A DNA stretch of 56,646 nucleotides. Source: a virus. Numbering within the stretch: position 1 is the first letter of the stretch; each line of letters opens with the position of its first letter. Of the stretch, positions 18,067 through 56,646 are shown in pieces. The stretch spans positions 1 through 56,646 of the IMG/VR virus record IMGVR_UViG_3300035092_000017; one strand, 5' to 3'. The position numbers and the translations under genes were made by a program. Under the pieces are notes generated by a model. That model was not told the origin of the DNA. It did not search any database and saw only the letters and a program-made list of their open reading frames with translations.

Positions 18067-18249
18067 TTAAATCCAGTGCCAAAACAGTTTAATCATTCCG
18101 AAGATGGCCAGGGAGAGCACGATCCAGATAACGAAACTCTGCCAGAACAGGATTCGTTGTGCGCGAATCATGCGTTTTCGGAAGGTCAACGGGCGATCTG
18201 ATGCTTGCTTGCACGCCTGCTGAAGTTCATCCGTATTGTCGTTGTTCAT
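18067..18249 (-). CDS. single-pass small membrane protein, 60 aa
   Basis: ATG 18249 shares its A with the upstream TAA (TAATG). The N-terminal half is charged, then one membrane segment (about residues 35-55, SFVIWIVLSLAIFGMIKLF) and a short end HWI. Early position in a nuclease/recombination operon suggests a host-takeover role rather than lysis, but nothing is known. Confidence 0.6.
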   Translation of the reverse strand: MNNDNTDELQQACKQASDRPLTFRKRMIRAQRILFWQSFVIWIVLSLAIFGMIKLFWHWI

Positions 18250-19175
18250 TATTCTTTTCCAATCATCCAAGCTTCGGGACTTGTTAGGTTCCACCCGTTC
18301 AAAATCATCCTGCCTTCGTCATCATATCCCGGCCAGTGATTATCCACGAGGCAGCGGCAGTAGCGTTTCAGCGCCGTTAAATATTGTAATCGGCCAAGCT
18401 GAATAAATTCCTCAGAGAGAATCCGCTTGCCAACCTCCCACGGCGCGTACGATTCCTGGAGCACATGGAGAAACTCGATTCGATCCTCGCCAGTGGCCGT
18501 CACATACATATCGAGATAGAACGCCGCCTGGACATGGTAGCCGTGTTCAAATACCGCACGAGTCCATGGGAACGGACTAGCGGTATTGCATGTCTTCAGA
18601 TCAGCCAATGCCTTCCCAAATGCGCTCTTTGGCTGCGGCACAAGATCAATCAATCCCTTGACCGGAATGTTTAGCCGCGTTTCTTCGTCGAAATATTCCG
18701 CGATCACCATCACTTGCTTTTCTGAGCACGCGACCAACGCCGCGACCTGCTGATCGGCCATCAGAACGCGCACCGCATTCGATGCTTTCGCAAATACATC
18801 GGACTTAACAACGGTTTGCCCGTCTCGTTGATCGCGCCAACTCTTGCAGGCATTCGCATTCCAGTTCCACGGCTTTTCTTCGCCTTTATCATTGGTGTAT
18901 GTCTCTGGCGTGATCGCAAAGTCAGATTCAAAGGCATCCGGGGACAAGACCAAGGCGTCAATCAATGTCCCCCATTCGCTGGCTTTGGTCTCGTCTGATT
19001 CGTAACCCATCAGCCATCTATGTGGGCAGCGGTTAAATTCCATCAGATGACCGCGTGACATCGGGAATTCCTTTGACCCGCGCTTCTCGGTGTTCCGCCG
19101 GTAAACCTCTGCGGCGATGCCTGAGCCGATTACCTTGGCGTTGCTGAACGGGTTTTTAAGGCTGATTGCTTCCAT
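18249..19175 (-). CDS. PD-(D/E)XK exonuclease, RecE/Cas4-like
   Basis: Encodes 308 aa. Matches the pattern of phage-encoded exodeoxyribonuclease VIII-like proteins: an N-terminal helix with CPHRWLMG, then EWGTLIDALVLSPDAFE, then the nuclease core with PVKGLIDLVPQ (the first acidic residue) and ALADLKTC (the D-x-K pair), then HGYHVQAAFYLDMY (the following helix with Q-A-x-Y). Such enzymes resect DNA ends 5' to 3' to give single strands for annealing. The next gene is a RecA-like ATPase, so the two likely form a recombination or repair module. Confidence 0.82.
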   Translation of the reverse strand: MEAISLKNPFSNAKVIGSGIAAEVYRRNTEKRGSKEFPMSRGHLMEFNRCPHRWLMGYESDETKASEWGTLIDALVLSPDAFESDFAITPETYTNDKGEEKPWNWNANACKSWRDQRDGQTVVKSDVFAKASNAVRVLMADQQVAALVACSEKQVMVIAEYFDEETRLNIPVKGLIDLVPQPKSAFGKALADLKTCNTASPFPWTRAVFEHGYHVQAAFYLDMYVTATGEDRIEFLHVLQESYAPWEVGKRILSEEFIQLGRLQYLTALKRYCRCLVDNHWPGYDDEGRMILNGWNLTSPEAWMIGKE

Positions 19176-19176
19176 A

Positions 19177-20142
19177 TCAGGCTGTGGCCATCTCCTTGAG
19201 TTTCACTGTCGTTTTATCGATTACTTCCTTGAGTCGGTCACTGTCCAGATCCCCAAGGTTTTCGGTGTCAGCAATTATCGCCTTGTCCCAAAGGAACTGT
19301 TCAAGTTTCGGCTTTAATGCCTGCCAGTCGGCGGGCTTCATATCCTTAGTCCATCCGTGAATGCCAACGGTGAGCGTACGGAGCTTCGAGAGCAGTTCGC
19401 CCTTGCCGTTGCCATTCGCCTGCACGCCAGGACCGCCCGGAGCAGCACACCACGCGGCTAATCGTTCGCCATGGTGGATAGTGGTCATTTCATTGTTCGG
19501 CATCGCTTGGCGCAAGGCTGGGTGCGAGCATTTAGTCAATCGGAACGTGTGATCCGGCATGACCTCACCATGACAAGTAGTCTCAAAAATGAAGTCTTCC
19601 GCCTGAATTGGCGATGTGTGTTCATCCTTCACAATCTCGGTCCGCCCTTGAGCGTTCTTGCCTTGGCGCGTCTTGAACTTCGCCCGTAAGCAAATGATCC
19701 ACGGCAACGGCGATTGGAGAAGCTTCAGCATAAACTTCTGGTGTTCCAGCTTCGGTTCTCTCCAGTTGTGCAACCCAGACTTGCCGCTTTTCTGTTCGCG
19801 CTCGGTTGCCATATCGATCACCCCTCCCAAACCTTCCCATTCGTGACTACCTGAATCCAATACGCCGACCTGTGCGCCGGAGTTTTCGACAATCTTAACG
19901 GCTTCAATGTAGCGCGACGGCGAGAATGGCTCTCGCAATTCCAAGACATCATAGCCGCCCTGGATGACATCGGCGTAAAGACTGCCGCGCCCGCTCTCGG
20001 TATCGATCATCACAATCTTGCCAGTCGGCCCGACAAAGCCACGCGCCAGCAACAGCGCCGACATTGTTTTTCCGCATCCGCTCTCCGAATAGAAGCAGAT
20101 GATCGGCTTTACGCCTGTTCGAGATGCTTTATGTATTTCCAT
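19177..20142 (-). CDS. RecA-like AAA ATPase, putative Sak4-type recombinase
   Basis: Encodes 321 aa. Walker A is SGCGKTMSALLLA near residue 21; a Walker B-like strand is GAQVGVLDSGSHEWEG near residue 89. Between them is KIVMIDTESGRGSLY, as in AAA_24/Sak4 proteins, the RecA-core single-strand annealing family of phages. The C-terminal 90 residues are a helical tail (LEQFLWDKAIIAD). Paired with the RecE-like nuclease gene 2 bp downstream. I cannot separate Sak4 from other AAA_24 ATPases without a search. Confidence 0.75.
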   Translation of the reverse strand: MEIHKASRTGVKPIICFYSESGCGKTMSALLLARGFVGPTGKIVMIDTESGRGSLYADVIQGGYDVLELREPFSPSRYIEAVKIVENSGAQVGVLDSGSHEWEGLGGVIDMATEREQKSGKSGLHNWREPKLEHQKFMLKLLQSPLPWIICLRAKFKTRQGKNAQGRTEIVKDEHTSPIQAEDFIFETTCHGEVMPDHTFRLTKCSHPALRQAMPNNEMTTIHHGERLAAWCAAPGGPGVQANGNGKGELLSKLRTLTVGIHGWTKDMKPADWQALKPKLEQFLWDKAIIADTENLGDLDSDRLKEVIDKTTVKLKEMATA

Positions 20143-32586: not shown

Positions 32587-33021
32587 ATGGCAATAACTTT
32601 TTATAAAAAAAGAATGTTGACAACCTATGGGATTAGTTCACAATCGCGGCAGATGAGATTCAGTCAGGCTGATTTAGATGCTTACATGGCTCGCAGGCGA
32701 GTCTCGAATCCAAACGCGCTAGTAGCCGACCCAACGCCCGCAGGTCAGGAATGGAAGCTACAAGAACAGATCCGAGAAGAATGCGGACGGCGAGGGTGGG
32801 TGGTCTTGACCGGCTCGATGGCCAATCGCACAAGTCGTACGTTAGGCGAGCCGGATTTTGTGATTGCGGCTGACCGGGGCAGGACATTTTTTATTGAGGC
32901 GAAAACCAAAGTCGGCAAGCTGTCACTGGAACAGCAGGCGATGTTCGCTCATCTGACGAAATTGGGCCATATCCCGGCAGTCGTTCGTTCGCTGGATGAA
33001 TTCCTGAAAGTGATCACATGA
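32587..33021 (+). CDS. VRR-NUC domain nuclease
   Basis: The C-terminal half has LTGSMANRTSRTLGEPDFVI then FFIEAKTKVGKLSLEQQAMF, the PD-(D/E)XK VRR-NUC core (E/D in GEPDF, E-x-K in IEAK), a DNA-repair and junction-processing nuclease family. Start uncertain: ATG 32587 (144 aa) or ATG 32653 (122 aa), which follows a candidate promoter TTGACA (32617-32622), 16-bp spacer, CACAAT (32639-32644). Probable role in Holliday-junction or DNA-end processing. Confidence 0.8.
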   Translation: MAITFYKKRMLTTYGISSQSRQMRFSQADLDAYMARRRVSNPNALVADPTPAGQEWKLQEQIREECGRRGWVVLTGSMANRTSRTLGEPDFVIAADRGRTFFIEAKTKVGKLSLEQQAMFAHLTKLGHIPAVVRSLDEFLKVIT

Positions 33022-33191
33022 CCCACCTGCAATTTTTCATCTGCCTGAATATGATTGGCGTTCCGATAATGACTTTTTTGATTGCAGGAGATGAGCCGGA
33101 TACTGCTGAGGCTATTGGCATGATAGTGCTCTTGTCGGTATTTGTGAACATTATCGCATTTGGTATTCGACTGGCCATCATCTGGGGATAA
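33018..33191 (+). CDS. two-segment membrane protein, 57 aa (first of a tandem pair)
   Basis: Reads MTHLQFFICLNMIGVPIMTF, a first membrane segment, then an acidic turn (AGDEPDTAE), then a second membrane segment around residues 35-57 (MIVLLSVFVNIIAF), ending GIRLAIIWG. The start overlaps the previous stop. Its neighbour 33194-33373 is a paralogue. Two-pass small proteins in tandem are typical of holin/antiholin pairs or superinfection-exclusion proteins. Confidence 0.65.
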   Translation: MTHLQFFICLNMIGVPIMTFLIAGDEPDTAEAIGMIVLLSVFVNIIAFGIRLAIIWG

Positions 33192-33193
33192 AC

Positions 33194-33373
33194 ATGAGTC
33201 ACTTGCAATTTTTAATCTCAACAAACATGATCGTGGTGCCAATTCTGGTTTTATCCGAGACGATGACTCTGGGAGATGAACTATGGCGCAAGGTTTGGGA
33301 TGCCATCGTTTTATTTTTAGTAGTCAACTTCATCGCCTTTGGCATTCGCTTGGCGGTGATCTGGAGCAGATAA
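33194..33373 (+). CDS. two-segment membrane protein, 59 aa (second of a tandem pair)
   Basis: Paralogue of the preceding gene: MSHLQF, NMIVVPILVL and NFIAFGIRLAVIWSR line up with MTHLQF, NMIGVPIMTF and NIIAFGIRLAIIWG. The turn differs (ETMTLGDELWRKVWD). Two proteins of one origin and slightly different charge are what a holin/antiholin pair looks like; no proof here. Confidence 0.65.
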   Translation: MSHLQFLISTNMIVVPILVLSETMTLGDELWRKVWDAIVLFLVVNFIAFGIRLAVIWSR

Positions 33374-34062: not shown

Positions 34063-34188
34063 ATGAAAATGACGAGCGAAGCACGTTATCTACTTCGATT
34101 GGCCATCAAAGTGTTTAAACGCAGAGGCGATAAATCTGCCTTGATTGCAGCTAGAAAAACACTGGACTCTAGGCGGCAGGCTGCATGA
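34063..34188 (+). CDS. 41-aa basic peptide
   Basis: GGAGGA lies 8 nt before ATG 34063. Reads MKMTSEARYLLRLAIKVFKR and ends in a Lys/Arg-rich helix. It converges with the leftward lysis block and overlaps its last gene by 20 bp. Function unknown. Confidence 0.55.
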   Translation: MKMTSEARYLLRLAIKVFKRRGDKSALIAARKTLDSRRQAA

Positions 34189-34339
34189 TCTGGTCGTAGG
34201 TCTTCACCTTCTCGAAGATCGCTTTCCAGTCATCGAGTGAATGTTCCTTCTTGGAAAATAGTGTGGCAATATCAAGGGCGATTGCTGGCCCGTAGCGTAG
34301 TAGTGTTTGGGCGATGATTAGTCCAAGTTCAGGAGTCAT
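34169..34339 (-). CDS. 56-aa protein, last of the leftward capsid/lysis operon
   Basis: ATG 34339 shares a base with the previous stop (TAATG). Product: MTPELGLIIAQTLLRYGPAI, then LDIATLFSKKEHSLDDWKAI, then FEKVKTYDQIMQP, helical. A short hydrophobic N-terminus and coupling to the lipoprotein gene suggest it belongs to the lysis or surface set. Function unknown. Confidence 0.6.
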   Translation of the reverse strand: MTPELGLIIAQTLLRYGPAIALDIATLFSKKEHSLDDWKAIFEKVKTYDQIMQPAA

Positions 34340-34710
34340 TACTTACCTTTCAGTTTCAGCAGACGATCCGGGGGCAGGAATTGTTCGATCAACGAAATCA
34401 CATCAGCCGATGCCGCGCTCACCGCTGCCACCGCTTTATAAAGATCGTTGGTGTTCGTGTTCGACTTGAATGATTCGATGGCGCTGCGTTCCACTTGGAC
34501 CGCGCCGTAATACTTGTTGTAGATCGCGCGCACCTGGTCTTGTTTATTCGAGGCGATTAGGCCCACCGAACAGGCATCCCGATAAGCATTCATGGCGCTG
34601 GCCACCGTGACCACGACAACTCCGGTTGATTTGTAAGCTACGTCTTCCGCGCTTTTGCAGCCGATGAATAGGCTGGCCAGCAGGACTGTTAGGATGATGC
34701 TCTTTTTCAT
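34339..34710 (-). CDS. lipoprotein, 123 aa
   Basis: Start at ATG 34710 (MKKSIILTVLLASLFIGCKS); the lipobox is FIGC with Cys18. After cleavage it has a helical body (VTVASAMNAYRDACSVGLIA, YGAVQVERSAIESFKSN) and an Arg/Lys-rich C-terminus. An outer-membrane lipoprotein at the end of a lysis-like cassette could be an o-spanin, but it is longer than most and no partner is obvious. Superinfection exclusion is an alternative. Confidence 0.62.
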   Translation of the reverse strand: MKKSIILTVLLASLFIGCKSAEDVAYKSTGVVVVTVASAMNAYRDACSVGLIASNKQDQVRAIYNKYYGAVQVERSAIESFKSNTNTNDLYKAVAAVSAASADVISLIEQFLPPDRLLKLKGK

Positions 34711-35955: not shown

Positions 35956-36255
35956 TTATCCGGTTTTGTCGTGGACTTCTTTGCTGAGTTGGGTGGTATC
36001 TCCTTTAATTTGGGCAATGGCGTCCGTGTGCTCATTAAGAGCTTTTTGCACCGAAGCATTGTCTGCGGCAAACAAATTCGAGAAGAACTTGCCTAACATG
36101 TTAATGAGCGTGCCAGCAATGGCCAGCCAGAGATTGATTTGATGCAGTTCATCTCCTGTGCCGACTTGGGCAAGAGATGTTAGCAATGTCGCATCGCGTA
36201 ACCCTGATCCAAGCGTTTCAAGCGAACCGCCCAATGTAGTTCTCCATGATTTCAC
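35956..36255 (-). CDS. holin-like protein, 99 aa
   Basis: Begins MKSWRTTLGGSLETLGSGLR, the SW+TTLGG opening common in small phage holins, then an internal hydrophobic segment (QINLWLAIAGTLINMLGKFF) and a coiled-coil tail (VQKALNEHTDAIAQIKGDTT). The opening motif is repeated in the neighbouring receiver-domain protein. Likely inner-membrane pore or regulator of lysis timing. Confidence 0.7.
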   Translation of the reverse strand: MKSWRTTLGGSLETLGSGLRDATLLTSLAQVGTGDELHQINLWLAIAGTLINMLGKFFSNLFAADNASVQKALNEHTDAIAQIKGDTTQLSKEVHDKTG

Positions 36256-36818
36256 GATTTCTTTTTCAGCAGTGCTTTCATCGCCCGTTCATCCATGCAA
36301 AACGCCAAACTAACCCCAGCCGCGACCACCGCAATGCTGGTGCTGTCCACGTGCTTAGTGCAAGACCAGACGCCCAAGGCAGACACGATCATGCCGCCAA
36401 GTGTGGTTCTCCATGACGGTCTTAGGTTGGCTCCCTTCTTAAAAATGGCTTCAGTGACATCCATAAAATTGAGCATGTAGCGCATGTCGTTGGACGTGAA
36501 CGGTTTGGGAAAAAGAAATACCGCTCCGCAATCCATTACTTGAGCTTTCTTCCGCTCGTCGGAATAGCCGGAGATTATGGCTACCGGAATGTGGGTGTAG
36601 TTGTCCTTGAGCCAGCGCACTAACTCGACTCCATCCATGTCGGGAACCTTCAGGTCCACGCAGGCGAAACGAAAATGGCTGGAATGGCGCAAGATTCTTT
36701 GGGCATCGGAGGCGCTTTTGGCGTGCTCCACATGATAGCCTTGTTCCTCGACCACTCGTCGCAGTAACTCGGCATCGTGTAGATTGTCTTCGATGATAAG
36801 TATATTTTTCCCGTTCAT
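36252..36818 (-). CDS. CheY-like receiver domain fused to a holin-like membrane domain
   Basis: Encodes 188 aa from ATG 36818; an ATG at 36848 would add 10 residues. Residues 5-120 are a full response-regulator receiver: acidic pair E10/D11 (ILIIEDN), phospho-acceptor D55 (FACVDLKVPDMDGVELV), S83 in VAIISGYS and K105 in FLFPKPF, i.e. every catalytic residue of CheY. From residue 134 it carries PSWRTTLGGMIVSALGVW, the same motif as the adjacent holin-like gene, then a second hydrophobic segment (SIAVVAAGVSLAF) and a basic tail. I know of no described holin with a receiver domain. It suggests lysis gated by phosphorylation from a host kinase, or conversely a phage decoy of host signalling. Confidence 0.85.
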   Translation of the reverse strand: MNGKNILIIEDNLHDAELLRRVVEEQGYHVEHAKSASDAQRILRHSSHFRFACVDLKVPDMDGVELVRWLKDNYTHIPVAIISGYSDERKKAQVMDCGAVFLFPKPFTSNDMRYMLNFMDVTEAIFKKGANLRPSWRTTLGGMIVSALGVWSCTKHVDSTSIAVVAAGVSLAFCMDERAMKALLKKKS

Positions 36819-36855: not shown

Positions 36856-37194
36856 TCACGCATTATCTGGTTTCTGACCCTCCGGGGCAGTCAACTGAGG
36901 TTTATTACTACTATCGACAGTGGCCTGGTTCTCCTGGTGTTCAATCCAAATACGGTGCGCTTCCTCAGCCACTTTTTGGTCTTGTGGATCTTTTGTGAGG
37001 CTCGCAATGCGGTCGGCCTGCAATGATGTAATCCGAAGTTGAGCACCGAAATTTGAATTTACCAGCGTATGCACGTCCTTAATAGTATTCGCTGTTGCGT
37101 GCTGCTTGCGATTATTCCACACCTGAAGAAACGCAATCACCACCAGCGCAATTGCTGTCCCGATTTGTCCGTAGTCAGTGGTGGCGAGCATCAT
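36856..37194 (-). CDS. membrane-anchored coiled-coil protein, 112 aa
   Basis: N-terminal membrane segment (TDYGQIGTAIALVVIAFLQV), then a short basic stretch (WNNRKQHATANTIKDVHTLV) and a long helical tail. A two-part layout with a TM helix and coiled coil is common in holin-neighbour and spanin-like phage proteins. It directly precedes the receiver-holin fusion. Function inferred from context. Confidence 0.6.
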   Translation of the reverse strand: MMLATTDYGQIGTAIALVVIAFLQVWNNRKQHATANTIKDVHTLVNSNFGAQLRITSLQADRIASLTKDPQDQKVAEEAHRIWIEHQENQATVDSSNKPQLTAPEGQKPDNA

Positions 37195-39140: not shown

Positions 39141-40469
39141 CTATTCTCCTTCCGAGCAGAAGGAATTGTAAGGCGTCAAGGTCTGGTAAACCATCGCCGG
39201 GCTGTCCTGACAGCGCGGGTTATTCACCACCGTCTGGGGTTCGCGTTGAGCGATGATGATCATTTCGATCTGGGGATAGTCTGTTACTGCCCCAAGCTCG
39301 AATTCACCCAGTAGATAGCCATAGTTGCCCTTGTCGTTCTGGTATTCGCAAACCTTGCCGTTGTTCGGGTCGGTGAACCGGAAATAATCCGGGGATTTCC
39401 ACATCCATTTGCCGGCCAGCGAACGGGCCATGTTGAACTTCATCTCCGGGTTGACCGGGGAAATGTCGCCCGCAAACACCGTGCGCGCATCCCGATTGTA
39501 GACGTGATACATCTGGTAAGGCGCATTTTTGTAAGCGGTATCGAACTCCGGTTTCTTGCCCACGGTCGCCGCCACATTCTGGTAAGGCCATACCCGCTGC
39601 AACACGCCATTGCCGATGTGCTGGAAGCGCAACGGTTCGGGGTCCAGCTTGAACATCCAGTTGCCAATCCGTTTCTGCATTAGGCCGTACTCGAAGTAGC
39701 GCCCGCCGCGTTCATAATCGTTGATCGCATATTGCGTGACCAGGGTAGGGTTCTGCACTGAAAGATCCCGGTGCGTCTGTAAATCGGTGGTGACAGCGAA
39801 TGTGCCTTGCGGCAGAAATTCGTTGTTGAAATAACCGTTGTATTGCAGGTTCTCGATGTGGTTGTCGAGATACTGCATGGTCAATTTAGAGGTTGGCAGA
39901 TTGCCTGTTCCGCCCAAATCGATCTTGGTGCAATTGGCCAAGAACATAGCTGGAGTCACCGCGACGGTGGTCAGGGCTGAACCGGCGATGTGGAGCACAT
40001 CGGCTTGGCGCACCGAGAGCAGTCGGAGGAAATCGGAGATGATCGAATCTGGTTCTTTCTTCAGGCCATCAATGATGCCCGCCAATTGGCTGATCACTTC
40101 TTCGACGTTGCGAAGCTGATCGTAACATAGCGGTTGTGTCTGGTAATCCCGGTGATACCGCACGTAGGTGTAGCGCGTCGATCCCCAGCCGATAATTGAA
40201 CGGTTCGGCGCACAGAGGGCATCGCAACCTGTGGCGGTTCCAGATCCGCCGACCGTCACTTCATCCCAACAACCGTCGTCATTGGGTCGGGTGACGTGCA
40301 CTTTATCGCGCGTATGCGTGGTGCCTGTGCCGGTGGGCCAGACTTGGGAGCGGTACATGTTCGAGTAAACGTAAGACCAAGGAAATCGGTCCTTCGTTAG
40401 CTCTTTATCGAAGTCGGGGGTTCGACGAAATAACGTCGCATTTATCTGTTTGCATTGCTCGGCATTCAA
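39141..40469 (-). CDS. major capsid protein (putative)
   Basis: Encodes 442 aa with a TTG start at 40469 (no ATG in range; an in-frame stop at 40511 limits it). Size, lack of signal peptide and position at the head of a structural operon fit a major capsid protein. A middle part (YLDNHIENLQYNGYFNNEFL, TQYAINDYERGGRYFEYGLM) and the C-terminal region (MKFNMARSLAGKWMWKSPDY) look like the conserved beta domains of podoviral capsids. I have no clear HK97-type signature, so the call rests on context. Its mRNA has a long structured leader (40492-40655). Confidence 0.68.
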   Translation of the reverse strand: MNAEQCKQINATLFRRTPDFDKELTKDRFPWSYVYSNMYRSQVWPTGTGTTHTRDKVHVTRPNDDGCWDEVTVGGSGTATGCDALCAPNRSIIGWGSTRYTYVRYHRDYQTQPLCYDQLRNVEEVISQLAGIIDGLKKEPDSIISDFLRLLSVRQADVLHIAGSALTTVAVTPAMFLANCTKIDLGGTGNLPTSKLTMQYLDNHIENLQYNGYFNNEFLPQGTFAVTTDLQTHRDLSVQNPTLVTQYAINDYERGGRYFEYGLMQKRIGNWMFKLDPEPLRFQHIGNGVLQRVWPYQNVAATVGKKPEFDTAYKNAPYQMYHVYNRDARTVFAGDISPVNPEMKFNMARSLAGKWMWKSPDYFRFTDPNNGKVCEYQNDKGNYGYLLGEFELGAVTDYPQIEMIIIAQREPQTVVNNPRCQDSPAMVYQTLTPYNSFCSEGE

Positions 40470-42047: not shown

Positions 42048-42358
42048 CCCCGGAAGAAATCAAATCCAGCATCAGTATTCGCCAGCACGTGGATGTAAAC
42101 GGTGATACGACCTTCACTGGCACGCTTGAAATTCGAGCGGATTTGATGGTGTCGCGTCACGCTTATAAGAGTGAGAAGCATGTTGAGGAAATAGAGAACA
42201 TCATCAGGGCAAAAATCCTTGGAGCAATCTTTTCGGATCGGCGCAAGGAGCTGATGGGTGCTTTAAGGGAATATAGCCAGTATCACTTTGCAGTGGGTGA
42301 TCCTGCGAAGGTAGCTCAGTCGCAGGACAAACTTCTGGCCTTCGTGAATTACTTGTGA
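42044..42358 (+). CDS. unknown 104-aa protein
   Basis: GTG 42044 overlaps the previous stop. Reads MTPEEIKSSISIRQHVDVNG; beta-rich first half (DTTFTGTLEIRADLM), helical second half (EEIENIIRAKILGAIFSDRR). Overlaps the GT9 gene by 4 bp. Function unknown. Confidence 0.65.
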   Translation: MTPEEIKSSISIRQHVDVNGDTTFTGTLEIRADLMVSRHAYKSEKHVEEIENIIRAKILGAIFSDRRKELMGALREYSQYHFAVGDPAKVAQSQDKLLAFVNYL

Positions 42359-43716
42359 ACCAGAAAATCTATTGTTGTCTCGGAAGGCTTGGCGATGTGC
42401 TTGCTTTCCTTCCCGTGCTTCATGCCGAATTCAAAAACGGCAATCGGTGCGGCATGATGGTCGCCAAAGAATTCGCTGGCGTGCTGGACGGCATCTCGTA
42501 CGCCGATAAGATCGAATATCCAGGTCAATGTTACGAGATTGATCGCGCAATGGCACAAGCTTGGCAACTCAGTCCATCGGTGCAATGTGTCCAGGTCGCC
42601 GGTCCATCGGAGTTGGTCAAGAAGTTCACTTATCAGCCAGCGGGATTGGAAAAGGCAGTGACGGATTCCTTTACGAAGGAATCGTGGAGAATGGCTGGCC
42701 GGTTGGATTTGTGGAAAACTCAACCACCACTCATCATTGATCGGCGCGATAGCCAACGAGAATCCGAACTGCTGAAAGATTTCCCGAAAAAGAAGAAAGT
42801 GATTCTGATTTCAGCCGGTGGCACTACCAGCCCGTTTCCTTATCACGATCTATTGTTCAAGATTCTCCAAATCAATTTTCAGCCGAAACATGTGGTGGTG
42901 GATCTGGCCCGATTTCACGCGGAACGCATCTATGATCTGCTGGCTTTATATGAACGGGCGCATTGCCTAGTAGCTTGTGATTCCGCTCCGCTGCATCTAG
43001 CTCATGCTTGCCCCAATCTGCCGGTAGTGGCTTTAGCCAACGATTCTCCTTCACTGTGGCATGGTTCACCGTGGCGAGCTAATCACATTGCTTACATCCG
43101 ATACAAAGACTTCGCATTGCGAGCCTGCGAGATGTTAGACGCTATCGAAGGCATTGGCGGATTTGGCACACTAAAGGGCGCTTCGGGCAAACGGCGCATC
43201 GTTCATTGCTGGTCGCAATACGATGTTTCTACCGACAACAAGGAGCGGCATGAAGTCGCCGTCAATAATTGGAAAGAGAATTACGGCAGTGGCAATTGGG
43301 TTGCCGCCAAGATTGATTTTGGTGCGTTGGGCAAGGACTCCAAAACTATCCTGAAAGATGACCGGCGATTTCCCAGCCTGAAAGAAGTAATTCGGCTGGC
43401 TACCTTCCGCACCCGTGATGAAGATGTTATTTGCCTGACTCGTGGAGATACCTGCTGGGACTCTCTGGATGACGCGTTGCTGGCTAATGCACCCTGCTAC
43501 GCGCATCGCTGCTTGCGTGACGAGTCAGGCCATACTACTTGGCATCCTGCCGTGGACCTGTTCGCCTTCACTAAACTTTGGTGGAATGAACATGGGCGGG
43601 AATTGCCGGATCTTCTGTTATCAAAAGACCCGTATTGGTCGAGATGCCTTTACGAACTTATTAAACTTCACGGAGGAAAAGAATTACCAAATGCGATATG
43701 GCGAAGATGGAAGTAA
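42355..43716 (+). CDS. GT9-like glycosyltransferase (heptosyltransferase-type) with C-terminal extension
   Basis: Encodes 453 aa, GTG start. The N-terminus YCCLGRLGDVLAFLPVLHAE is the GT9 N-terminal block (RLGDxxxxxP), and AHCLVACDSAPLHLAHACPN is the C-terminal donor-binding block, with NLPVVALANDSPS following. From about residue 275 an extra 170-residue domain (VHCWSQYDVSTDNKERH, DVICLTRGDTCWDSLDDALL) resembles the start of another GT-A or sugar-binding region. Sits first in the glycan operon. Confidence 0.78.
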   Translation: MNQKIYCCLGRLGDVLAFLPVLHAEFKNGNRCGMMVAKEFAGVLDGISYADKIEYPGQCYEIDRAMAQAWQLSPSVQCVQVAGPSELVKKFTYQPAGLEKAVTDSFTKESWRMAGRLDLWKTQPPLIIDRRDSQRESELLKDFPKKKKVILISAGGTTSPFPYHDLLFKILQINFQPKHVVVDLARFHAERIYDLLALYERAHCLVACDSAPLHLAHACPNLPVVALANDSPSLWHGSPWRANHIAYIRYKDFALRACEMLDAIEGIGGFGTLKGASGKRRIVHCWSQYDVSTDNKERHEVAVNNWKENYGSGNWVAAKIDFGALGKDSKTILKDDRRFPSLKEVIRLATFRTRDEDVICLTRGDTCWDSLDDALLANAPCYAHRCLRDESGHTTWHPAVDLFAFTKLWWNEHGRELPDLLLSKDPYWSRCLYELIKLHGGKELPNAIWRRWK

Positions 43717-44180
43717 AATTATCCCAATCCGATATTGATCGGTTTTTTCAAAAAATCAGGAAGACCGATAGCTGCTGGCTTTGGACTGGCGCACTTTATG
43801 GCGCTGGAAGATATGGTCAATTTTGGGCTAAGGGCGACATGCACTTGGCTCATAGGATTTCTTGGATGATTCATTTTCAAGAGATTCCAAAAGGGTTTTT
43901 CGTATGCCACAAGTGCGATGTGAAGCAATGCGTTAATCCTGATCATCTATTTGTTGGATCTCCAGCCGATAATATTGATGACATGGTTAGGAAAAAAAGA
44001 TGCAATCCGCCTATTGGTGAACGAAGCGGAACAGCTAAGTTGACAACGGCTCAAGTTCTGGAAATTCGCAGAAAATATGCTGGCGGAAATGTCACGCAGA
44101 AGGAATTGGGAATTTTGTACGGGGTGGCTGACACGGCAATTTGTAGAATCATAACAGGTAGGCGCTGGGCGCATATATGA
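43698..44180 (+). CDS. HNH endonuclease within the glycan operon
   Basis: Encodes 160 aa (ATG 43698, overlapping GT9 by 19 bp; ATG 43707 is an alternative). RFFQKIRKTDSCWLWTGALY, HKCDVKQCVNPDHLFVGSPA and a C-terminal HTH (QKELGILYGVADTAICRIIT) match one unit of the tandem HNH gene at 12082. Same strand as the operon and coupled at its end (ATGA), so it is tolerated there; no flanking repeats as strong as for the other two. Confidence 0.85.
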   Translation: MAKMEVKLSQSDIDRFFQKIRKTDSCWLWTGALYGAGRYGQFWAKGDMHLAHRISWMIHFQEIPKGFFVCHKCDVKQCVNPDHLFVGSPADNIDDMVRKKRCNPPIGERSGTAKLTTAQVLEIRRKYAGGNVTQKELGILYGVADTAICRIITGRRWAHI

Positions 44181-45151
44181 ACGAACCTGGTTACGTGGTT
44201 CATAACGGTCAATTGGCTAAGGCGTGGCTTGAAAAAATAGGCCGTGTGGCCCTGTTCCCGGCTGTCTCTAGCCAGATACCCGCCGTGCAGATCAATCCAA
44301 AGGCGCTTCATCCATTCGGTTACAACGGCAGCTTGATTCGGTTTGAGGGTCGTTTGCTGTTGGCTTACCGCTATCACGTCGATAACAAACTGAGCACGAA
44401 ATTAGCGGTGGCGGAACTGGACGATAATTTCAACGTCATCCGAAATTCTAATCTGGAGATTGCAGGCAATCATCAATCGAGCGAAGATCCGCGTTTATTC
44501 ATCTATCAAGGAAAGCTTTGGATGAGTTACGTCTGTTCGACATGGCCATCGCAGAATCCGGTCTGTGTCACCAAGTACGGGATGTTGAATCAGATCAGCA
44601 ACGGTTGGGGCATTGTGCCGCAGACCGAGAAGCAGCCGGCCTATGGGAAGAATGACGGCACCAGTCTGGAAAAGAATTTCATTTTCTGGGAGCATTTTAG
44701 TGGGGAACTTTATTGCATTCACCGCAGTTTGCCTGAACAGGTGATCATGGGGCGGGATTGCGAATTGAAATCACCAGCACCGCGTTGGGCTTGGGGCGAG
44801 ATTCGCGGTGGTTGTTCCCCGTTGCCGTGGCAAGGCAAACTGTTGCGCTTCTTCCATTCCTCGCTGGATTTCGAGCAGCCACCGGCCCGCAGGCGTTACT
44901 TCATGGGAGCAGCTTTGATGGAACCAGATGCACCGTTCAGGACATTGGCGGTGAGTAAGAAACCTATTTGCGTGGGAAGTGAAATTGATGACCTGACGGT
45001 GGAACAGCGAGGGGAAGCGTTGAGCTACAAGGAGAAGGTCATCTTCCCAATGGGAGCGATCATGTTGGGAGACGGATTCGTGGTATCGGCAGGCTGCAAC
45101 GATAGCTCAGTGCTGCTGTTGAAGATTGGACCGAAGGATCTCAACTTATGA
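44177..45151 (+). CDS. GH130-like five-bladed beta-propeller (glycosidase/phosphorylase-type)
   Basis: Encodes 324 aa. Repeated propeller phrases: NGSLIRFEGRLLLAYRYHVD, SSEDPRLFIYQGKLWMSYVC, EKNFIFWEHFSGELYCIHRS, IRGGCSPLPWQGKLLRFFHS, VIFPMGAIMLGDGFVVSAGC. These match the propeller of GH130 mannoside phosphorylases and related glycosidases; EDPRLF is typical of the active-site blade. In a phage it might trim or rebuild a glycan on the virion, or degrade host glycan. Activity needs testing. Confidence 0.7.
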   Translation: MNEPGYVVHNGQLAKAWLEKIGRVALFPAVSSQIPAVQINPKALHPFGYNGSLIRFEGRLLLAYRYHVDNKLSTKLAVAELDDNFNVIRNSNLEIAGNHQSSEDPRLFIYQGKLWMSYVCSTWPSQNPVCVTKYGMLNQISNGWGIVPQTEKQPAYGKNDGTSLEKNFIFWEHFSGELYCIHRSLPEQVIMGRDCELKSPAPRWAWGEIRGGCSPLPWQGKLLRFFHSSLDFEQPPARRRYFMGAALMEPDAPFRTLAVSKKPICVGSEIDDLTVEQRGEALSYKEKVIFPMGAIMLGDGFVVSAGCNDSSVLLLKIGPKDLNL

Positions 45152-45369
45152 CCAGCTTAAATCAATTGGAAAAGTTCATCGAGGAAACCAAACCGGAAGT
45201 GATGCACGTTGCTGCCAGCGAGGTATGTCAGCATCGGGAGACTGAACCTGTCGAATCACATTGGTCGAACATCGACCCGATTCGTAAGTGCAAAGATTGT
45301 GGGCGAATCAAATTTTCGTCTGAGTCCAAGTTCCGGGAATTGGAAATCGAATTCGATAGATTTTTTTGA
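45148..45369 (+). CDS. small protein with Cys site, 73 aa
   Basis: The first half is helical (LNQLEKFIEETKPEVMHVAA) and the second has a short CKDCGRIKFSSESKF motif with an earlier Cys, like a small zinc ribbon of the phage 'KCKDCG' family. Coupled at both ends. Function unknown. Confidence 0.65.
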   Translation: MTSLNQLEKFIEETKPEVMHVAASEVCQHRETEPVESHWSNIDPIRKCKDCGRIKFSSESKFRELEIEFDRFF

Positions 45370-45371
45370 GC

Positions 45372-45980
45372 ATGACCCAACTCTTTCAACAGATCGAATC
45401 GCTCATCCCCAAGCTGCATGGGTGGGCGACGGTGAAGAAATGCCAGATGCTTGCCGCCTCAGTGATCGCGCTGCAACCTGAAACCAGTATAATCATCGGA
45501 GTCTGGGGAGGCAGAGATACGTTCGCTCTAGGATTGGCGCACAAGTTCATCGGCAAAGGTCGAGTGATGGCGATTGATCCATGGGCTTCGGTGGCAAGTG
45601 CTCAAGGCCAAACCACCAATGCGGATAAACAATGGTGGGCCAACATTGATCACGAATTAGTCTATAACGATTTCCTGAAGAATCGCACGGAACTCGGATT
45701 GAATGATACCGTGTTGGTTTACCGGATGATTTCGGATTATGCCGATGTGCCGAAACGGATCGATGGCGTACTGGTCGTGGATGGCAACCACGGGCCGAAC
45801 GCTATTACTGATGTGGATCGATTCGTACCGAGTGTGGCTACTGGAGCAGTGGTGTTATTAGACGATAAAAATTGGTCCGGGGGGTACGTAGCCAAGGCGA
45901 TTGAGAAGATCAAGACGATGGGATTCCGGTCACTTTATGAGGTCGATACCAGTGAAATGTTTCAGAGGATTTCAGGATGA
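45372..45980 (+). CDS. class I SAM-dependent methyltransferase
   Basis: Start at ATG 45372; a TTG at 45366 is possible. SIIIGVWGGRDTFALGLAHK is motif I (glycine loop), VMAIDPWASVASAQGQ is motif II (acidic Asp binding the ribose), VLVVDGNHGPNAITDVDRFV and VVLLDDKNWSGGYV follow as in Methyltransf_24 enzymes. In a glycan operon it most likely O-methylates a sugar; other targets are possible. Confidence 0.8.
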   Translation: MTQLFQQIESLIPKLHGWATVKKCQMLAASVIALQPETSIIIGVWGGRDTFALGLAHKFIGKGRVMAIDPWASVASAQGQTTNADKQWWANIDHELVYNDFLKNRTELGLNDTVLVYRMISDYADVPKRIDGVLVVDGNHGPNAITDVDRFVPSVATGAVVLLDDKNWSGGYVAKAIEKIKTMGFRSLYEVDTSEMFQRISG

Positions 45981-46981
45981 AAAACATGCTCAGTATTGGC
46001 TATCTTACCTGCCGAAAGAATCCATGCTGGCAATGGTTTTTGGATAGCTTGGTAGCCCAGTCAGGTTGGCATCCATTCGATACTGAAGTTTTGATCTGCG
46101 ACTTCTGGATGCAGGAGATTCCGCATCTGAACTGGACCTTGGCTGACGTGTATTCGAGGAAGAAAGAGTTTACGGCTATCATCAACAAGTACATGAAGAT
46201 TTTGGTATTTCCGCCAAAACCGACAGTTTGGTCCGGGCCGTTCAGATTGACCCGAAATGATTATTTTAGTGCCTCGAATAGCAGGAATACAATCATCGCC
46301 CACGCCAGTGGCACGCACTTGGCGATTGTGGACGACCTTTCCGTTCTCATGCCGGGATGGTTAAGCGCATTTATGCAATCCATAGAGCAACGATACATTG
46401 TTTGTGGTGCTTTCCGTAAAGTGAAAGAGTTAGAGGTTGAGAATGGCACGGTTAAATCATTTGTGGATCATCCATCGGGCCACGATTCACGCTGGAAAAG
46501 TGGGCGGGAAGATAAAGCCGTAGATTGTCCCGGAAACTGGCTATTCGGTTGCTCACTGGGTGCGCCAGTAGACGCTTTCTTGAAGATTAACGGGTTTTTT
46601 GAGATGTGCGATTCGACTGGTATTGGGTTGGACGATTGCTCGTGCGGCATGGCGCTGGCTAACACTGGCCACAAGCTTAAATATGATCGTCGAATGCTCA
46701 CTCTCGAATCTGAAGAACGGCATCACCTAGAAAAGCCGATGCTTCGGATGGACAAGAACCGAGGCAAGGTGATCGAAGTCCGACCAGGGCTGACGCATCC
46801 CGACGAAAAGGGCCATGCGCTGGTAAAGTTGTTCCAGAATGCGAAATGGTTCCCGAATGATTTTGGCCCGTTCCCCGATCTGGCGGCGTTACGAAAGCAT
46901 GTGTTGGCGGGTGGCGCGTTTCCCGTGGTTAATAGACCTGTGACCGATTTTTATGACGGCCAACCGCTTTCTGAATTATGA
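45977..46981 (+). CDS. GT2-like glycosyltransferase (GT-A)
   Basis: Encodes 334 aa. SIGYLTCRKNPCWQWFLDSL begins the fold, NSRNTIIAHASGTHLAIVDD is the GT-A donor site with the DD pair, then VLMPGWLSAFMQSIEQRYIV; GNWLFGCSLGAPVDAFLKIN and GIGLDDCSCGMALANTGHKL are the late motifs of GT2 enzymes. Acts in the host cytoplasm on nucleotide sugars. Acceptor unknown. Confidence 0.75.
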   Translation: MKNMLSIGYLTCRKNPCWQWFLDSLVAQSGWHPFDTEVLICDFWMQEIPHLNWTLADVYSRKKEFTAIINKYMKILVFPPKPTVWSGPFRLTRNDYFSASNSRNTIIAHASGTHLAIVDDLSVLMPGWLSAFMQSIEQRYIVCGAFRKVKELEVENGTVKSFVDHPSGHDSRWKSGREDKAVDCPGNWLFGCSLGAPVDAFLKINGFFEMCDSTGIGLDDCSCGMALANTGHKLKYDRRMLTLESEERHHLEKPMLRMDKNRGKVIEVRPGLTHPDEKGHALVKLFQNAKWFPNDFGPFPDLAALRKHVLAGGAFPVVNRPVTDFYDGQPLSEL

Positions 46982-47175
46982 AACTGCGATCCTTTAATCT
47001 GGTATTCCATCGACTGAAAGCATGGGTGCCGATTCGCCGTCAGAAATCAAGGGTGACTACGGTTCAGACGGATATTGAATTCATCCGGTGGTATATCTGC
47101 CCGATGCCGTTTGCCACAATCGAAGTTCTATTTGAATGTCCGGTGCCGGATGAACAGAGAGGGAGGAATTGGTGA
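46978..47175 (+). CDS. unknown 65-aa protein
   Basis: Basic, with LVFHRLKAWVPIRRQKSRVT and IRWYICPMPFATIEVLFECP. The start overlaps the GT2 stop (ATGA). It may be an accessory to the glycosyltransferases. Function unknown. Confidence 0.6.
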   Translation: MKLRSFNLVFHRLKAWVPIRRQKSRVTTVQTDIEFIRWYICPMPFATIEVLFECPVPDEQRGRNW

Positions 47176-47345
47176 TGGTACGCTTCCATTTTATCCCGTC
47201 TCCTAAGCCTTGGTACTGGGTGTTCACTTTTTGGCGAAAGAAATGGATTAACTACGGCTGCTATCGTCCTGTTCATCCGGGAGAACCGGGATATGATGAA
47301 GCCCCTTATGAAATGGGATTTATGTTCGGAGATTCCAAACCATGA
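47175..47345 (+). CDS. unknown 56-aa protein
   Basis: ATG 47175 overlaps the previous stop. Trp- and Tyr-rich (PSPKPWYWVFTFWRKKWINY), then an acidic end. Couples by 4 bp to the next glycosyltransferase. Function unknown. Confidence 0.6.
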   Translation: MVRFHFIPSPKPWYWVFTFWRKKWINYGCYRPVHPGEPGYDEAPYEMGFMFGDSKP

Positions 47346-47926
47346 TTTGCTCCGTTCTAATCCCAACCCGGATGCGCCCGACTTGGCTGCGTAAATGCGT
47401 GGAATCCATCTTGGATACTTGCGGCCTCGGAGATGATGTCCAAATATTAGCCCGAACAGATGACGATGATCCCAAGCAGCGTAAGATGGCCATTGATTTG
47501 CTGGGTGAAGAAAATGTGCTGACAGGTCCACGAATGCGTGGCTATTGGAGCATCAATCATTTCTATACCGAAATGGCGTTAAAGGCGTCAGCACCGTGGA
47601 TTTGGCTGATGAACGATGAATGCACTATTCGCGGGGATTGGGTGGATGACCTTTCAAAGATACCAGTTACAGGCTTCGTGGTGCAGCCAGAAAGTTATCA
47701 GGTCGGGCAATCCATGTATCGGAAGGTGCATGACACCACTTGCCCGATTGTGCCTAATTACTATTGGCTGCTGTGTGATCAGCCCGGAGTGCCTTACTCA
47801 ACGGATACCGACACTTACACGATGCTGAATAAGCAGTTGGGTTGGCAGACGGTTTACCTGCCAAGGTTGCATCTGGCGCATTACCGCTTCACCGATCAAG
47901 AGTATAAGGAGCATCACGGGGAATGA
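47342..47926 (+). CDS. GT2-like glycosyltransferase (short)
   Basis: Encodes 194 aa. SVLIPTRMRPTWLRKCVESI is the GT2 N-terminal nucleotide-binding strand, ILARTDDDDPKQRKMAIDLL the following segment, and APWIWLMNDECTIRG the donor-site D-x-D-like region. Ends shortly after LHLAHYRFTDQEY. Shorter than usual GT2 enzymes, so it may be a minimal GT-A. Part of the glycan operon. Confidence 0.7.
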   Translation: MICSVLIPTRMRPTWLRKCVESILDTCGLGDDVQILARTDDDDPKQRKMAIDLLGEENVLTGPRMRGYWSINHFYTEMALKASAPWIWLMNDECTIRGDWVDDLSKIPVTGFVVQPESYQVGQSMYRKVHDTTCPIVPNYYWLLCDQPGVPYSTDTDTYTMLNKQLGWQTVYLPRLHLAHYRFTDQEYKEHHGE

Positions 47927-48633
47927 ACATCTTCAACTTGGAACTGATGGGTGGGTTAGGGAATACCCTGTTTCAGTATGCGTTCGCCAAGGCTTTCTGT
48001 GAGAAGAATGGACTTGAACTGCATACTCCCATCTGGGCGGGTCAAGTTTTGTTTGGGATTCGAGATCCGGGGCCAGTTAATGGGCTACCGATTTACACCG
48101 ATTTGACGATTGGGGAATGGAAGGGAGGCGACATCTCATTTTGTGGATACACCCAGATGCAGCGCCATCTGCTTTACACTAGGGACCAGGCCCGTAAGTG
48201 GTTTACCTTTCGCACGTCATTGCTGGATCAGTTGGAAGAAACCAGACCTGATGACGATTATCTGGTGGCTCATCGTCGCGTAGGTGATTATCCGAGTTGC
48301 GGCTACGTCGTGGTGTCAAAGGAATCTTATCGAGTCGGAGCAGAGAAGTTTGGATTTGATCCCGACACTATTCGATGGGTGACGGATGAACACAGATCAG
48401 CAATTGCGGTGATGGAGCATGATTTCTACCGGCTGATGCGAGCGCCAATTTTATTTCGTGGCAATTCGACTTTTTCATGGTGGGCAGCAACACTTGGTCA
48501 CGGACGCGTGTTCAGTCCGATCATTGAGGACGCGGAAGGTGGTAAGGAACAGGACGTGCCTTTTTTGGACGGCAATTATGCCCGGTTCATCGTGGCGGAC
48601 AATGTAGAGGATTTGAGGTTGAAGGAAGCATGA
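47923..48633 (+). CDS. GT11-like alpha-1,2-fucosyltransferase
   Basis: Encodes 236 aa. LMGGLGNTLFQYAFAKAFCE (residues 8-27) is the GT11 N-terminal block, HRRVGDY (117-123) corresponds to the HxRRGDY motif that contacts GDP-fucose, and GNSTFSWWAA (180-189) is the GT11 C-terminal block. Shorter than typical (about 280 aa) but all three blocks are present. Fucose or a related deoxy-sugar is the expected donor. Confidence 0.82.
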   Translation: MNIFNLELMGGLGNTLFQYAFAKAFCEKNGLELHTPIWAGQVLFGIRDPGPVNGLPIYTDLTIGEWKGGDISFCGYTQMQRHLLYTRDQARKWFTFRTSLLDQLEETRPDDDYLVAHRRVGDYPSCGYVVVSKESYRVGAEKFGFDPDTIRWVTDEHRSAIAVMEHDFYRLMRAPILFRGNSTFSWWAATLGHGRVFSPIIEDAEGGKEQDVPFLDGNYARFIVADNVEDLRLKEA

Positions 48634-49178
48634 GCGATTTCAGAGAAGAAATGCGGTATGAATATCCGTTGACTCCAGAAAGCATCGTGGTTGATGCTGG
48701 GGCTTACCAGGGAACATTCGCCCGCACGATTTTCAATAAATACGGGTGCAATGTTCTGGCCTTTGAGCCTGTGTTTGAATGCAGGGTTAATCTTGGTGAA
48801 AATATTCTCGTTGTTCCATTTGGCATAGCCAGATACGGAGGTCTTTATACGTTTAACATTCAACTGGACGGCACGGGGATTTACGCAAAATCTTCAGCCT
48901 TTCAGTCTGTTCGCGCCGTCAATCTGATCGATATGCTGAACGCCTTGAATTTACAGCATGTTGATCTCCTGAAGCTGAACATCGAAGGAATGGAATTTGA
49001 AGTTTTAGAAGACCTGATTCAGCGTCAACAACTAACACGATTTGACAATATCCAAGTTCAGTTTCATCCTGTGATCCCTGATGCCGAAGCGCGACGCAAT
49101 TCCATTGTCAAGGAACTCTTGAAAACGCACGAACCAACCTACTGTTATCCCTGGGTGTGGGAGAACTACCGAAGATGA
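48630..49178 (+). CDS. FkbM family methyltransferase
   Basis: Encodes 182 aa. SIVVDAGAYQGTFARTIFNK is motif I, NVLAFEPVFECRVNL motif II (acidic), VDLLKLNIEGMEFEVLEDLI the FkbM signature. FkbM proteins O-methylate sugars or polyketides; beside GT11 and GT2 genes the target is likely a sugar hydroxyl. Coupled by ATGA to both neighbours. Confidence 0.82.
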   Translation: MSDFREEMRYEYPLTPESIVVDAGAYQGTFARTIFNKYGCNVLAFEPVFECRVNLGENILVVPFGIARYGGLYTFNIQLDGTGIYAKSSAFQSVRAVNLIDMLNALNLQHVDLLKLNIEGMEFEVLEDLIQRQQLTRFDNIQVQFHPVIPDAEARRNSIVKELLKTHEPTYCYPWVWENYRR

Positions 49179-54338: not shown

Positions 54339-56174
54339 TCAGATGTGTTGCAGCAATGCTCCGCGTATCGTGTCCTGATACTCGCGGGCCTCAGTTTCAA
54401 AGAAACTCTCACTGTCGCCTTTCTCGATCAATTCGGCTCCCAAACGCAAGATTTTAAATCCGCGCTGACGAGCACCTTCGATGAGCGTGACAAATTGATC
54501 ATATAAATCGGGAGAACGCACCATGCGCTCCCTAGCCTTTTTGTCGTGCTTACTCTCGATGAAGTATTTGCTTCCTTTGCCAAACCTGCCGTATTCCCGT
54601 TTGCAGCCTTCTGCCATGGTTTCCTCTGGCAATTCCCGGCATTGATTGCAGAGAATAAGATACATTGAGGAAAACCAAAGTTCCGACACAAAATCTATGT
54701 AATATTCATCGCAACGAACGTGTCGCCGTTCATCACCATCGCTTATGAACAAATCGTGGCGCACTGGCCGAGCCGATGGTTTACCACCGAATTCGACTGG
54801 CACAGGTGGACGCTCACCGAACACCTTGGCGAAGGCTGGACCTAATGTGCCGCGTCCGGTTGAGTCGTAAAAGATGTTCTCGGATGGGATGCCTAACTGC
54901 TCGGTATCTTTTTTGACGTATTCGGCAATCTGGTCCTCTGGTGATTTTCGACTGATGATGCTGATGGGGATCGTGGTCTGATTATTGACCCGCAGGATTT
55001 CCACGCCATCAATCGAAGTGCCGAATTCGCCCCACCCACCCACACAACGATCCCCACCTGTGCCGCTGTAGGCCGCGTCTATCGCGTAAATCTTAGTGTG
55101 GTCGGTGTTGAGCCACAGAGCTTTCTCTAGCGCGTGATGCTCCCGGCACATGTCCCTGGTGATGATGCGGCGACAGAGCAGGCCGGTCTTCATTATTCCA
55201 CCGCACTGTTCCCAGAAGCGTTGAGAATCTTTACCCCAGAATGCCGCAACTTCTTCGATTCGTTGCCGATGTATCAGGTAAGGAAACTTGGGCGGTTGAT
55301 CCACCGGAAAATCGAAATTGGGCGAATCGAATCCGACGAAATTGACGCATTTACCTTGGAGAAACTTTGTCTCCCAGACACGGGTTTTTTCGGATTCAGG
55401 CAGCGATCCCCATCCGTCTCGTGGTTCGGCGCACAAGCCAAGTGGATCAGTCGGGTCGATTGGATTACCGCAAGGAATGAATTTGAAGTGACGAGCACCG
55501 CCGATATTGCTGACGGCATCAAGAAAATTAGGTCCCATACACTGACATTCATCACTTACAAAGACAATGCGCTTGCTCTTAATCCCAACGTACTTACCAA
55601 GCCCTACGTAGCGCCCGCTTTGCAGACACGGGATGCAGATGATCCCCTTGTTGAGCACGCGACCCTTTTTGCGTTCCTCGATAGATTCTGGATTTAGTTC
55701 GTTTGTGGCAATGGCATGGAGCGAATCAATGATGTTACCTGCGAGATCGGAATATCGGTCGGTGGCACGATTGTAAAGTCCCTTGATTGTTCCCCAAACG
55801 CGCAATTCAAGTCCGCGAACGTCGGTGGACGATACCAGCACACAGGTTTCGTGCGGAAAACAGAAATAGTCGCAGAGAGCAAACTTGGCGGCGGAATAGG
55901 TCTTGTTGCTGTTCTGTGGACCCATCAGGCAGGTGACTTTGTTGGCCACGATTTCTCGCAACGCCAATTCTGCCCAACGGTGCCAATCATCTTCAGGCCA
56001 GAGCAAGGTCATGGCCCGCTTGTAGTGCTCGAATAATCCTAAGCCCCACTCCTTGCCGCTGGGATAGACGCCTTTCCCACCTTTCTGGATGCAGTAGAAT
56101 TCACAATCCAGATCATTGTAATGTGCGGGGAACTTAACCCCATATCGGGAAAAGGATTGATCGGCCTTAGCCAT
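54339..56174 (-). CDS. terminase large subunit
   Basis: Encodes 611 aa. Walker A near residues 85-92 (GPQNSNKT), Walker B with catalytic acid near 203-209 ([11 protein letters not shown]), C-motif region FIPCGNP (232-238). The C-terminal nuclease has D366 ([19 protein letters not shown]), D375, and D437 ([12 protein letters not shown]). ATPase plus RNase H-like nuclease powers and cuts DNA during packaging. Divergent from the collagen gene with 89 bp between. The small subunit was not recognised. Confidence 0.88.
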
Positions 56175-56263: not shown

Positions 56264-56646
56264 ATGAGCAACTTAAACGTGCTCAGGTTGAAGTTAGGAC
56301 TGACCAGTGGACCGACCGGTTCGACGGGTCCGACTGGTCCAACCGGAGCGCCAAGCACTGTTCCAGGGCCAACAGGTCCGAGTGGTCCGACTGGTCCTAC
56401 GGGTGCTACTGGCCCCACCGGTGCCGCATCTACAATTGCAGGCCCGACAGGGCCAACAGGCCCCACGGGTCCCACGGGTGCTAACTCAACAATTCCCGGC
56501 CCCACTGGTGCAACCGGACCTACAGGACCCACCGGTGCTAACAGCACAGTTGCGGGACCTACGGGCCCTACCGGACCTACTGGTCCGACTGGAGCGGATT
56601 CCACGGTTGCGGGTCCTACGGGTCCTACGGGTCCTACGGGTCCGAC
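56264..56646 (+). CDS. collagen-like GPT-repeat fibre protein, N-terminal part
   Basis: First part of the gene completed at 1-1037 across the contig junction. Starts at ATG 56264 ([20 protein letters not shown]), with a 14-residue non-collagen head, then GPTGPT triplets with short spacers ([20 protein letters not shown]). The reading frame at the right edge continues in the frame used at position 3 of the window. Confidence 0.88.
56520..56646. repeat. terminal overlap, right copy (circular contig)
   Basis: Identical to 1-127; see that entry. It lies inside the collagen-repeat region, so the overlap itself is repetitive and the circular join could hide a collapsed or lost triplet block. Confidence 0.93.

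Follow-up and report, generated by a model that had tools for sequence, protein, structure and literature searches.

Why would a phage encode a response-regulator receiver joined to a membrane segment? The question is raised by one gene of IMG/VR virus record IMGVR_UViG_3300035092_000017, the 56,646 nucleotides of which were analysed in full and are called the window here. A preliminary description had read the gene as a CheY-like receiver fused to a holin-like membrane domain in the capsid operon, possibly gating lysis or pore formation, and had proposed AlphaFold models of both domains and a search for homologous fusions. When a phage lyses its host, and whether the state of the host is consulted, is an old question; lysis timing is known to respond to the accumulation of holin, to membrane potential and to antiholins, RI of T4 among them. 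The gene and its parts are as follows.

36252..36818, minus strand: receiver and SWRTT membrane-hairpin fusion gene (188 aa, stop included)
36471..36803, minus strand: response-regulator receiver domain, residues 6-116 (PF00072, AlphaFold2, CheY alignment)
36654-36656, minus strand: putative phospho-acceptor D55 (alignment with CheY D57)
36258..36419, minus strand: SWRTT-family membrane hairpin, residues 134-187 (homology to small phage proteins; AlphaFold2 helices)

The fusion is real and unusual, and it has support beyond what was available to the preliminary description. The gene forms a single continuous reading frame on the minus strand, from the ATG at 36818, preceded 9 bases upstream by GGGGG, to the TGA at 36252, which shares 4 bases with the GTG start of the following 99-aa gene (GTG-A overlap). 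The SD-like stretch AAGAAGGGAG lies at 36418-36445 (minus strand), immediately before the SWRTT part and without an in-frame start; it is possibly the relic of a once-separate gene. The same stretch would also fit a frameshift introduced during sequencing or assembly that had fused separate receiver and hairpin genes in the metagenomic contig, and receiver and membrane genes are indeed separate and overlapping in contig L109 and in the Alteromonas phages described below. However, no in-frame ATG, GTG or TTG occurs between the SD-like stretch and SWRTT, so that the hairpin alone would be startless, and the adjoining reading frames are intact. We thus give next to no credence to such an artefact.

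Residues 6-116 match PF00072 with E=1.3e-19 and 70.8 bits (cut-off 30.2) over model positions 1-110 of 111. AlphaFold2, supplied with an alignment of 27 receivers taken from other loci, modelled this part as the alternating alpha/beta receiver fold (block pLDDT about 85-98), and the top matches listed by Foldseek in the PDB were all receivers or receiver-containing proteins (top E 4.4e-10). The fusion of a receiver with membrane segments in one 188-aa ORF is borne out, as is the receiver fold. In alignment with CheY, E10/D11, D55, S83 and K105 correspond to D12/D13, D57, T87 and K109, which confirms the complete catalytic set named earlier; the switch position, Y106 in CheY (Tyr/Phe), is occupied by Leu. 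Like CheY-type single-domain response regulators (PF00072), the fusion has the receiver fold, acidic pair, phospho-Asp, Ser/Thr and Lys, and no DNA-binding output. Unlike them, it carries a C-terminal membrane hairpin and the Leu switch, and it comes from a phage without a detected kinase. A histidine-kinase ATPase domain (HATPase_c) was not found in the phage record; if D55 is charged, it must therefore be charged by a host kinase or by acetyl phosphate.

In the membrane half, two hydrophobic segments had been claimed. The second is strong (KD15 2.22, residue 161), whereas the first is marginal (1.49, residue 140). AlphaFold2 placed two helices there, at residues 134-153 and 159-187, but at low confidence (pLDDT 56-66). 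The hairpin is homologous to small phage proteins encoded on contigs L009, L010, L015, L017, L018 and L021. A scan of IMG/VR with a DNA pattern for SWRTTLGG returned 21 places, 10 of which encode small SWRTT proteins (L009, L010, L012, L015, L017, L018, L020-L023), while the remaining matches fall in unrelated frames. The ten proteins have about 69-72 aa (65-75 aa for the family as a whole) and follow a common plan: SWRTTL[AG]G, a hydrophobic helix, a loop, a second hydrophobic helix and a ARDNKVSSEKAGAK-type charged tail. S, W, T, T, G and D are invariant in alignment A2, and motif, helices and tail are all found in the fusion. A2 is our evidence for the invariants; alignment A4 showed the same but included hand-edited rows, and alignment A6 was discarded because the SWRTT rows were misplaced in it. 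Judged by sequence, the SWRTT proteins are a real family of small, predicted phage membrane proteins, defined here and uncurated.

Comparison of this family with Pfam, PHROGs and NCBIfam yielded no curated holin or other family match, and a tblastn search of annotated phages found no member. Like class II (two-TM) holins such as DUF7940 and Phage_holin_10, the hairpin is small and phage-encoded, has a charged C-terminal tail and is putatively two-helical. Unlike them, it has a receiver attached, belongs to a phage in which no endolysin was recognised, and gave no sequence or profile match; kinship with the DUF7940 holin was rejected at a profile comparison probability of 0.2%. The earlier holin-like label thus finds no backing in the three family collections. 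The likeness would lie in size, topology and place, and the label is unproven.

The following neighbours belong to the same gene run.

36856..37194, minus strand: 112-aa protein encoded immediately upstream of the fusion, with an N-terminal TM segment and a hydrophilic tail that is long and probably helical
35956..36255, minus strand: 99-aa SWRTTLGG membrane protein with a GTG start (shared SWRTTLGG start)
34339..34710, minus strand: small lipoprotein-like gene (MKKSIILTVLLASLFIGC...)
34169..34339, minus strand: 56-aa protein with one hydrophobic segment, last gene of the run

SWRTTLGG is exactly identical in the fusion and the 99-aa protein, as the preliminary description had said. The 99-aa protein matched no family in Pfam, PHROGs or NCBIfam and is a possible partner of the fusion. 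Members of the family are often neighboured by 1-TM coiled-coil and lipoprotein genes. In the window, the 112-aa 1-TM gene is followed by the fusion and the second SWRTT protein, with the lipoprotein at some distance, an order that echoes a theme seen in two of the family contigs. In L009, three overlapping genes follow apparently structural ones, the SWRTT gene standing in the middle with an 89-aa 1-TM coiled-coil gene on one side and a lipoprotein-like gene on the other; the SWRTT gene of L010 is flanked by two lipoprotein-like genes. On the opposite (plus) strand to the receiver run, tandem paralogous genes for small two-TM proteins (MTHLQFF.../MSHLQFL...) are found at 33018-33191 and 33194-33373.

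The placement in a capsid operon could not be confirmed, since the presumed capsid ORF at 39141-40469 matched no family; it also yielded no relatives. An endolysin was not recognised in this phage, either among the scanned ORFs or with four endolysin-type families, and a search of the SWRTT-holding records with five families, of which the control for PF11351 was uninformative, found none. The fusion might be a membrane protein with no part in lysis, acting in superinfection exclusion or DNA entry or associated with the virion. The genes of the run that contains it appear to be structural or secreted, and the SWRTT genes of L009, L015 and L021 are likewise located among structural genes. We nevertheless regard this as very improbable: the L009 synteny of 1-TM coiled coil, hairpin and lipoprotein resembles a holin/spanin arrangement, and clear lysis cassettes of other phages do hold receivers, as shown below.

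Direct searches of the viral contig and genome contig collections gave no second instance of the exact receiver-SWRTT fusion, so that the search for homologous fusions came back empty in both. The sole genome match to the fusion query (L001) was rejected, being the receiver of a hybrid kinase. The broader pattern SW[RK]TT[LVI][GA]G was derived from A4, in which the motif letters of three rows had been edited by hand solely to widen the pattern; it matched 134 places, at which a tblastn check of undocumented upstream reach reported no receiver. As the fusion was without relatives in reach, phage receivers without an output domain were surveyed. Many receiver matches in the phage collections were set aside because they were bacterial contigs or OmpR-type regulators. 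Contig L083 (402 kb), with a receiver and a TM segment, was rejected as a lysis case since it adjoins a histidine kinase and is thus probably an ordinary signalling operon, and L118 was set aside as a receiver match within a large ORF without lysis context.

The survey showed that output-less receivers recur in the lysis cassettes of unrelated phages. In L105 (IMGVR_UViG_3300049204_000089, region 2480-4861), a 248-aa ORF comprises a receiver, an 84-residue coiled coil and a C-terminal TM segment (AlphaFold2 mean pLDDT 90). Like the window fusion, it is a phage receiver with a C-terminal membrane segment, located in this case directly upstream of an endolysin: the next plus-strand gene encodes a GH19 endolysin (phrog_181, 1.1e-34; PF00182 also above its cut-off), and a 1-TM gene comes after it. 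It differs from the fusion in having a long coiled coil and one TM segment, a membrane part unrelated to the SWRTT hairpin. The GH19 endolysin itself bears C-terminal hydrophobic segments. In L109, the L105 arrangement is split over two overlapping genes, the end of a receiver gene with a coiled coil running into a coiled-coil/TM gene. In L086, a 161-aa receiver (4.7e-20) is followed by a 74-aa TM ORF, a Hydrolase_2 protein (1e-7), which is a cell-wall hydrolase by family, a lipoprotein-like ORF and Phage_holin_10 (4.9e-7).

Seven annotated Alteromonas phages provided further cases (H4/4=L112, R8W=L113, R9Y2=L114, PB15=L116, XX1924=L117, A5=L119, V22=L120). H4/4 and R8W share the order tail fibre, annotated class II holin, 1-TM gene, receiver, 2-TM gene and terminase. 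In R9Y2, a 1-TM gene, the receiver and a GH108 lysozyme follow each other with 4-bp overlaps. XX1924 has a coiled-coil/TM gene, the receiver, DUF5675 and a 133-aa protein matching GTA_holin_3TM (1.4e-14); PB15 has a coiled-coil/TM gene, the receiver, a Peptidase_M15_3 endolysin and a near-identical homologue, also of 133 aa, of the XX1924 holin. In A5 and V22, CheY follows a weakly hydrophobic coiled-coil gene and precedes a spanin-like 1-TM gene and a 2-TM gene, after which A5 also has an annotated endolysin. The 112-aa gene of the window corresponds in position to the 1-TM coiled-coil genes that precede these receivers. Genes with a strong TM-like segment are infrequent in the two phages counted (8/64 in XX1924, 6/55 in R9Y2), so the recurring TM neighbours are unlikely to be due to chance. 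With a single host genus and some receivers interrelated (about 48% identity), the Alteromonas cases are not all independent.

The genes V22 ORF30, A5 gp11, R8W g48 and H4/4 gp44 are labelled AMG or PhoB, terms used by three papers (PMC7289586, PMC10579305, PMC8228385), in which the V22, A5 and R8W genes are classed as auxiliary metabolic genes; the passages on these CheY-like genes draw no link to lysis. Full-text searches of open-licence papers likewise listed no title or abstract that tied a receiver or CheY to a holin, endolysin or lysis cassette. Across the seven phages, the names given to the cassette receivers in annotations or papers are PhoB, AMG or hybrid kinase. The R8W and H4/4 receiver products have only 153 aa, which leaves no room for the DNA-binding part of PhoB, and H4/4 matches a receiver and no DNA-binding domain. 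The V22, A5, R8W and H4/4 receivers, which adjoin TM, spanin-like, holin and endolysin genes, are phage-encoded and without output like the fusion; they stand alone, whereas the window receiver is fused to its hairpin.

Close to this published auxiliary metabolic reading is the explanation that the fusion interferes with host two-component signalling from the membrane, the receiver serving as a phosphoryl sink or decoy and the hairpin merely delivering it to membrane kinases. An intact catalytic site with no DNA-binding output, in a phage without a detected kinase, would suit this role. It would leave unexplained why, in several phage families, stand-alone receivers lie, often with 4-bp overlaps, amid TM, spanin-like, holin and endolysin genes, and why the fused membrane module belongs to a phage family. 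We consider it unlikely, if worth serious attention. Alternatively, the fold might play no part in signalling and instead mediate dimerisation or docking within a membrane complex. In Alteromonas phage PT11-V19, a 1-TM gene precedes a degenerate receiver (L115:2998-3450) that has lost the phospho-Asp and Lys and is retained beside TM genes, so that phosphorylation may be dispensable in some cases, and the Leu at the switch position of the fusion points the same way. However, every catalytic residue is kept in the fusion and in 8 of the 9 other phage receivers compared, which makes a pseudo-receiver improbable.

The recurrence of receivers in lysis gene clusters of unrelated phages suggests that a phospho-signal helps some phages to decide when to burst the cell. 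Our main reading, with a probability of about one half, is that the fusion is a membrane-tethered CheY-type receiver, charged by a kinase or acetyl phosphate, which regulates the membrane machinery of phage lysis according to host state. The cytoplasmic receiver would be anchored in the inner membrane by the two-helix hairpin of the small phage family. An N-in/C-in hairpin, with the receiver cytoplasmic and the KALLKKKS tail inside, would agree with the positive-inside rule, and the ARDNKVSSEKAGAK-type tails of the SWRTT relatives fit this topology. Host histidine kinases or acetyl phosphate would phosphorylate D55, which may alter the conformation or dimerisation of the receiver and, with it, the membrane assembly of the protein's own hairpin. 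Phosphorylation-induced dimerisation is established for many receivers, and here it would draw hairpins into proximity. The hairpin of the adjacent 99-aa SWRTT protein, a natural partner, might also be affected in its assembly. Lysis would be advanced or delayed according to host state, the sign of the effect not being readable from the sequence.

We put forward more tentatively, and with some doubt, the sharper version in which the fusion is a phosphorylation-gated lysis protein whose hairpin assembles under the control of its own receiver, and one of a wider, unrecognised class of lysis-cassette receivers that couple timing to two-component signalling or acetyl phosphate. A lysis role is suggested by the gene neighbourhoods of other phages and not by an endolysin of the phage itself. 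Of the earlier idea of lysis or pore gating, the link between receivers and lysis genes is supported (L086, L105, L109 and the seven Alteromonas phages), while the equation of the hairpin with a holin finds no such support. Several observations speak against a lysis regulator: no endolysin was recognised, no curated holin matched, the first segment is weakly hydrophobic, the switch residue is Leu, the exact fusion was not found elsewhere, the PT11-V19 receiver is degenerate and the Alteromonas cases are partly related. If the main reading is true, two-component phosphorylation gains a direct post-translational route into lysis, and the annotation of the published phage "PhoB/CheY auxiliary metabolic genes" would change. 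The idea of lysis receivers can be tested at once in the cultured Alteromonas phages R9Y2, XX1924, PB15, H4/4 and A5.

Elsewhere in the window, relatives of the 611-aa ORF at 54339-56174 were sought and none were found. A recombination pair at 18249-20142 (minus strand) consists of an exonuclease VIII-like gene (phrog_412, 1.2e-48) and an ATPase of phrog_1366 (5.1e-52), and the run at 42355-49178 (plus strand) holds, as judged by eye, putative glycosyltransferase- and methyltransferase-like genes. The ends of the record, 1-127 and 56520-56646, are identical (about 127 bases) and lie inside a collagen-like GPTGPTG gene that reads through the end-to-end junction; the identical ends indicate that the genome may be complete, a circle broken within this gene.
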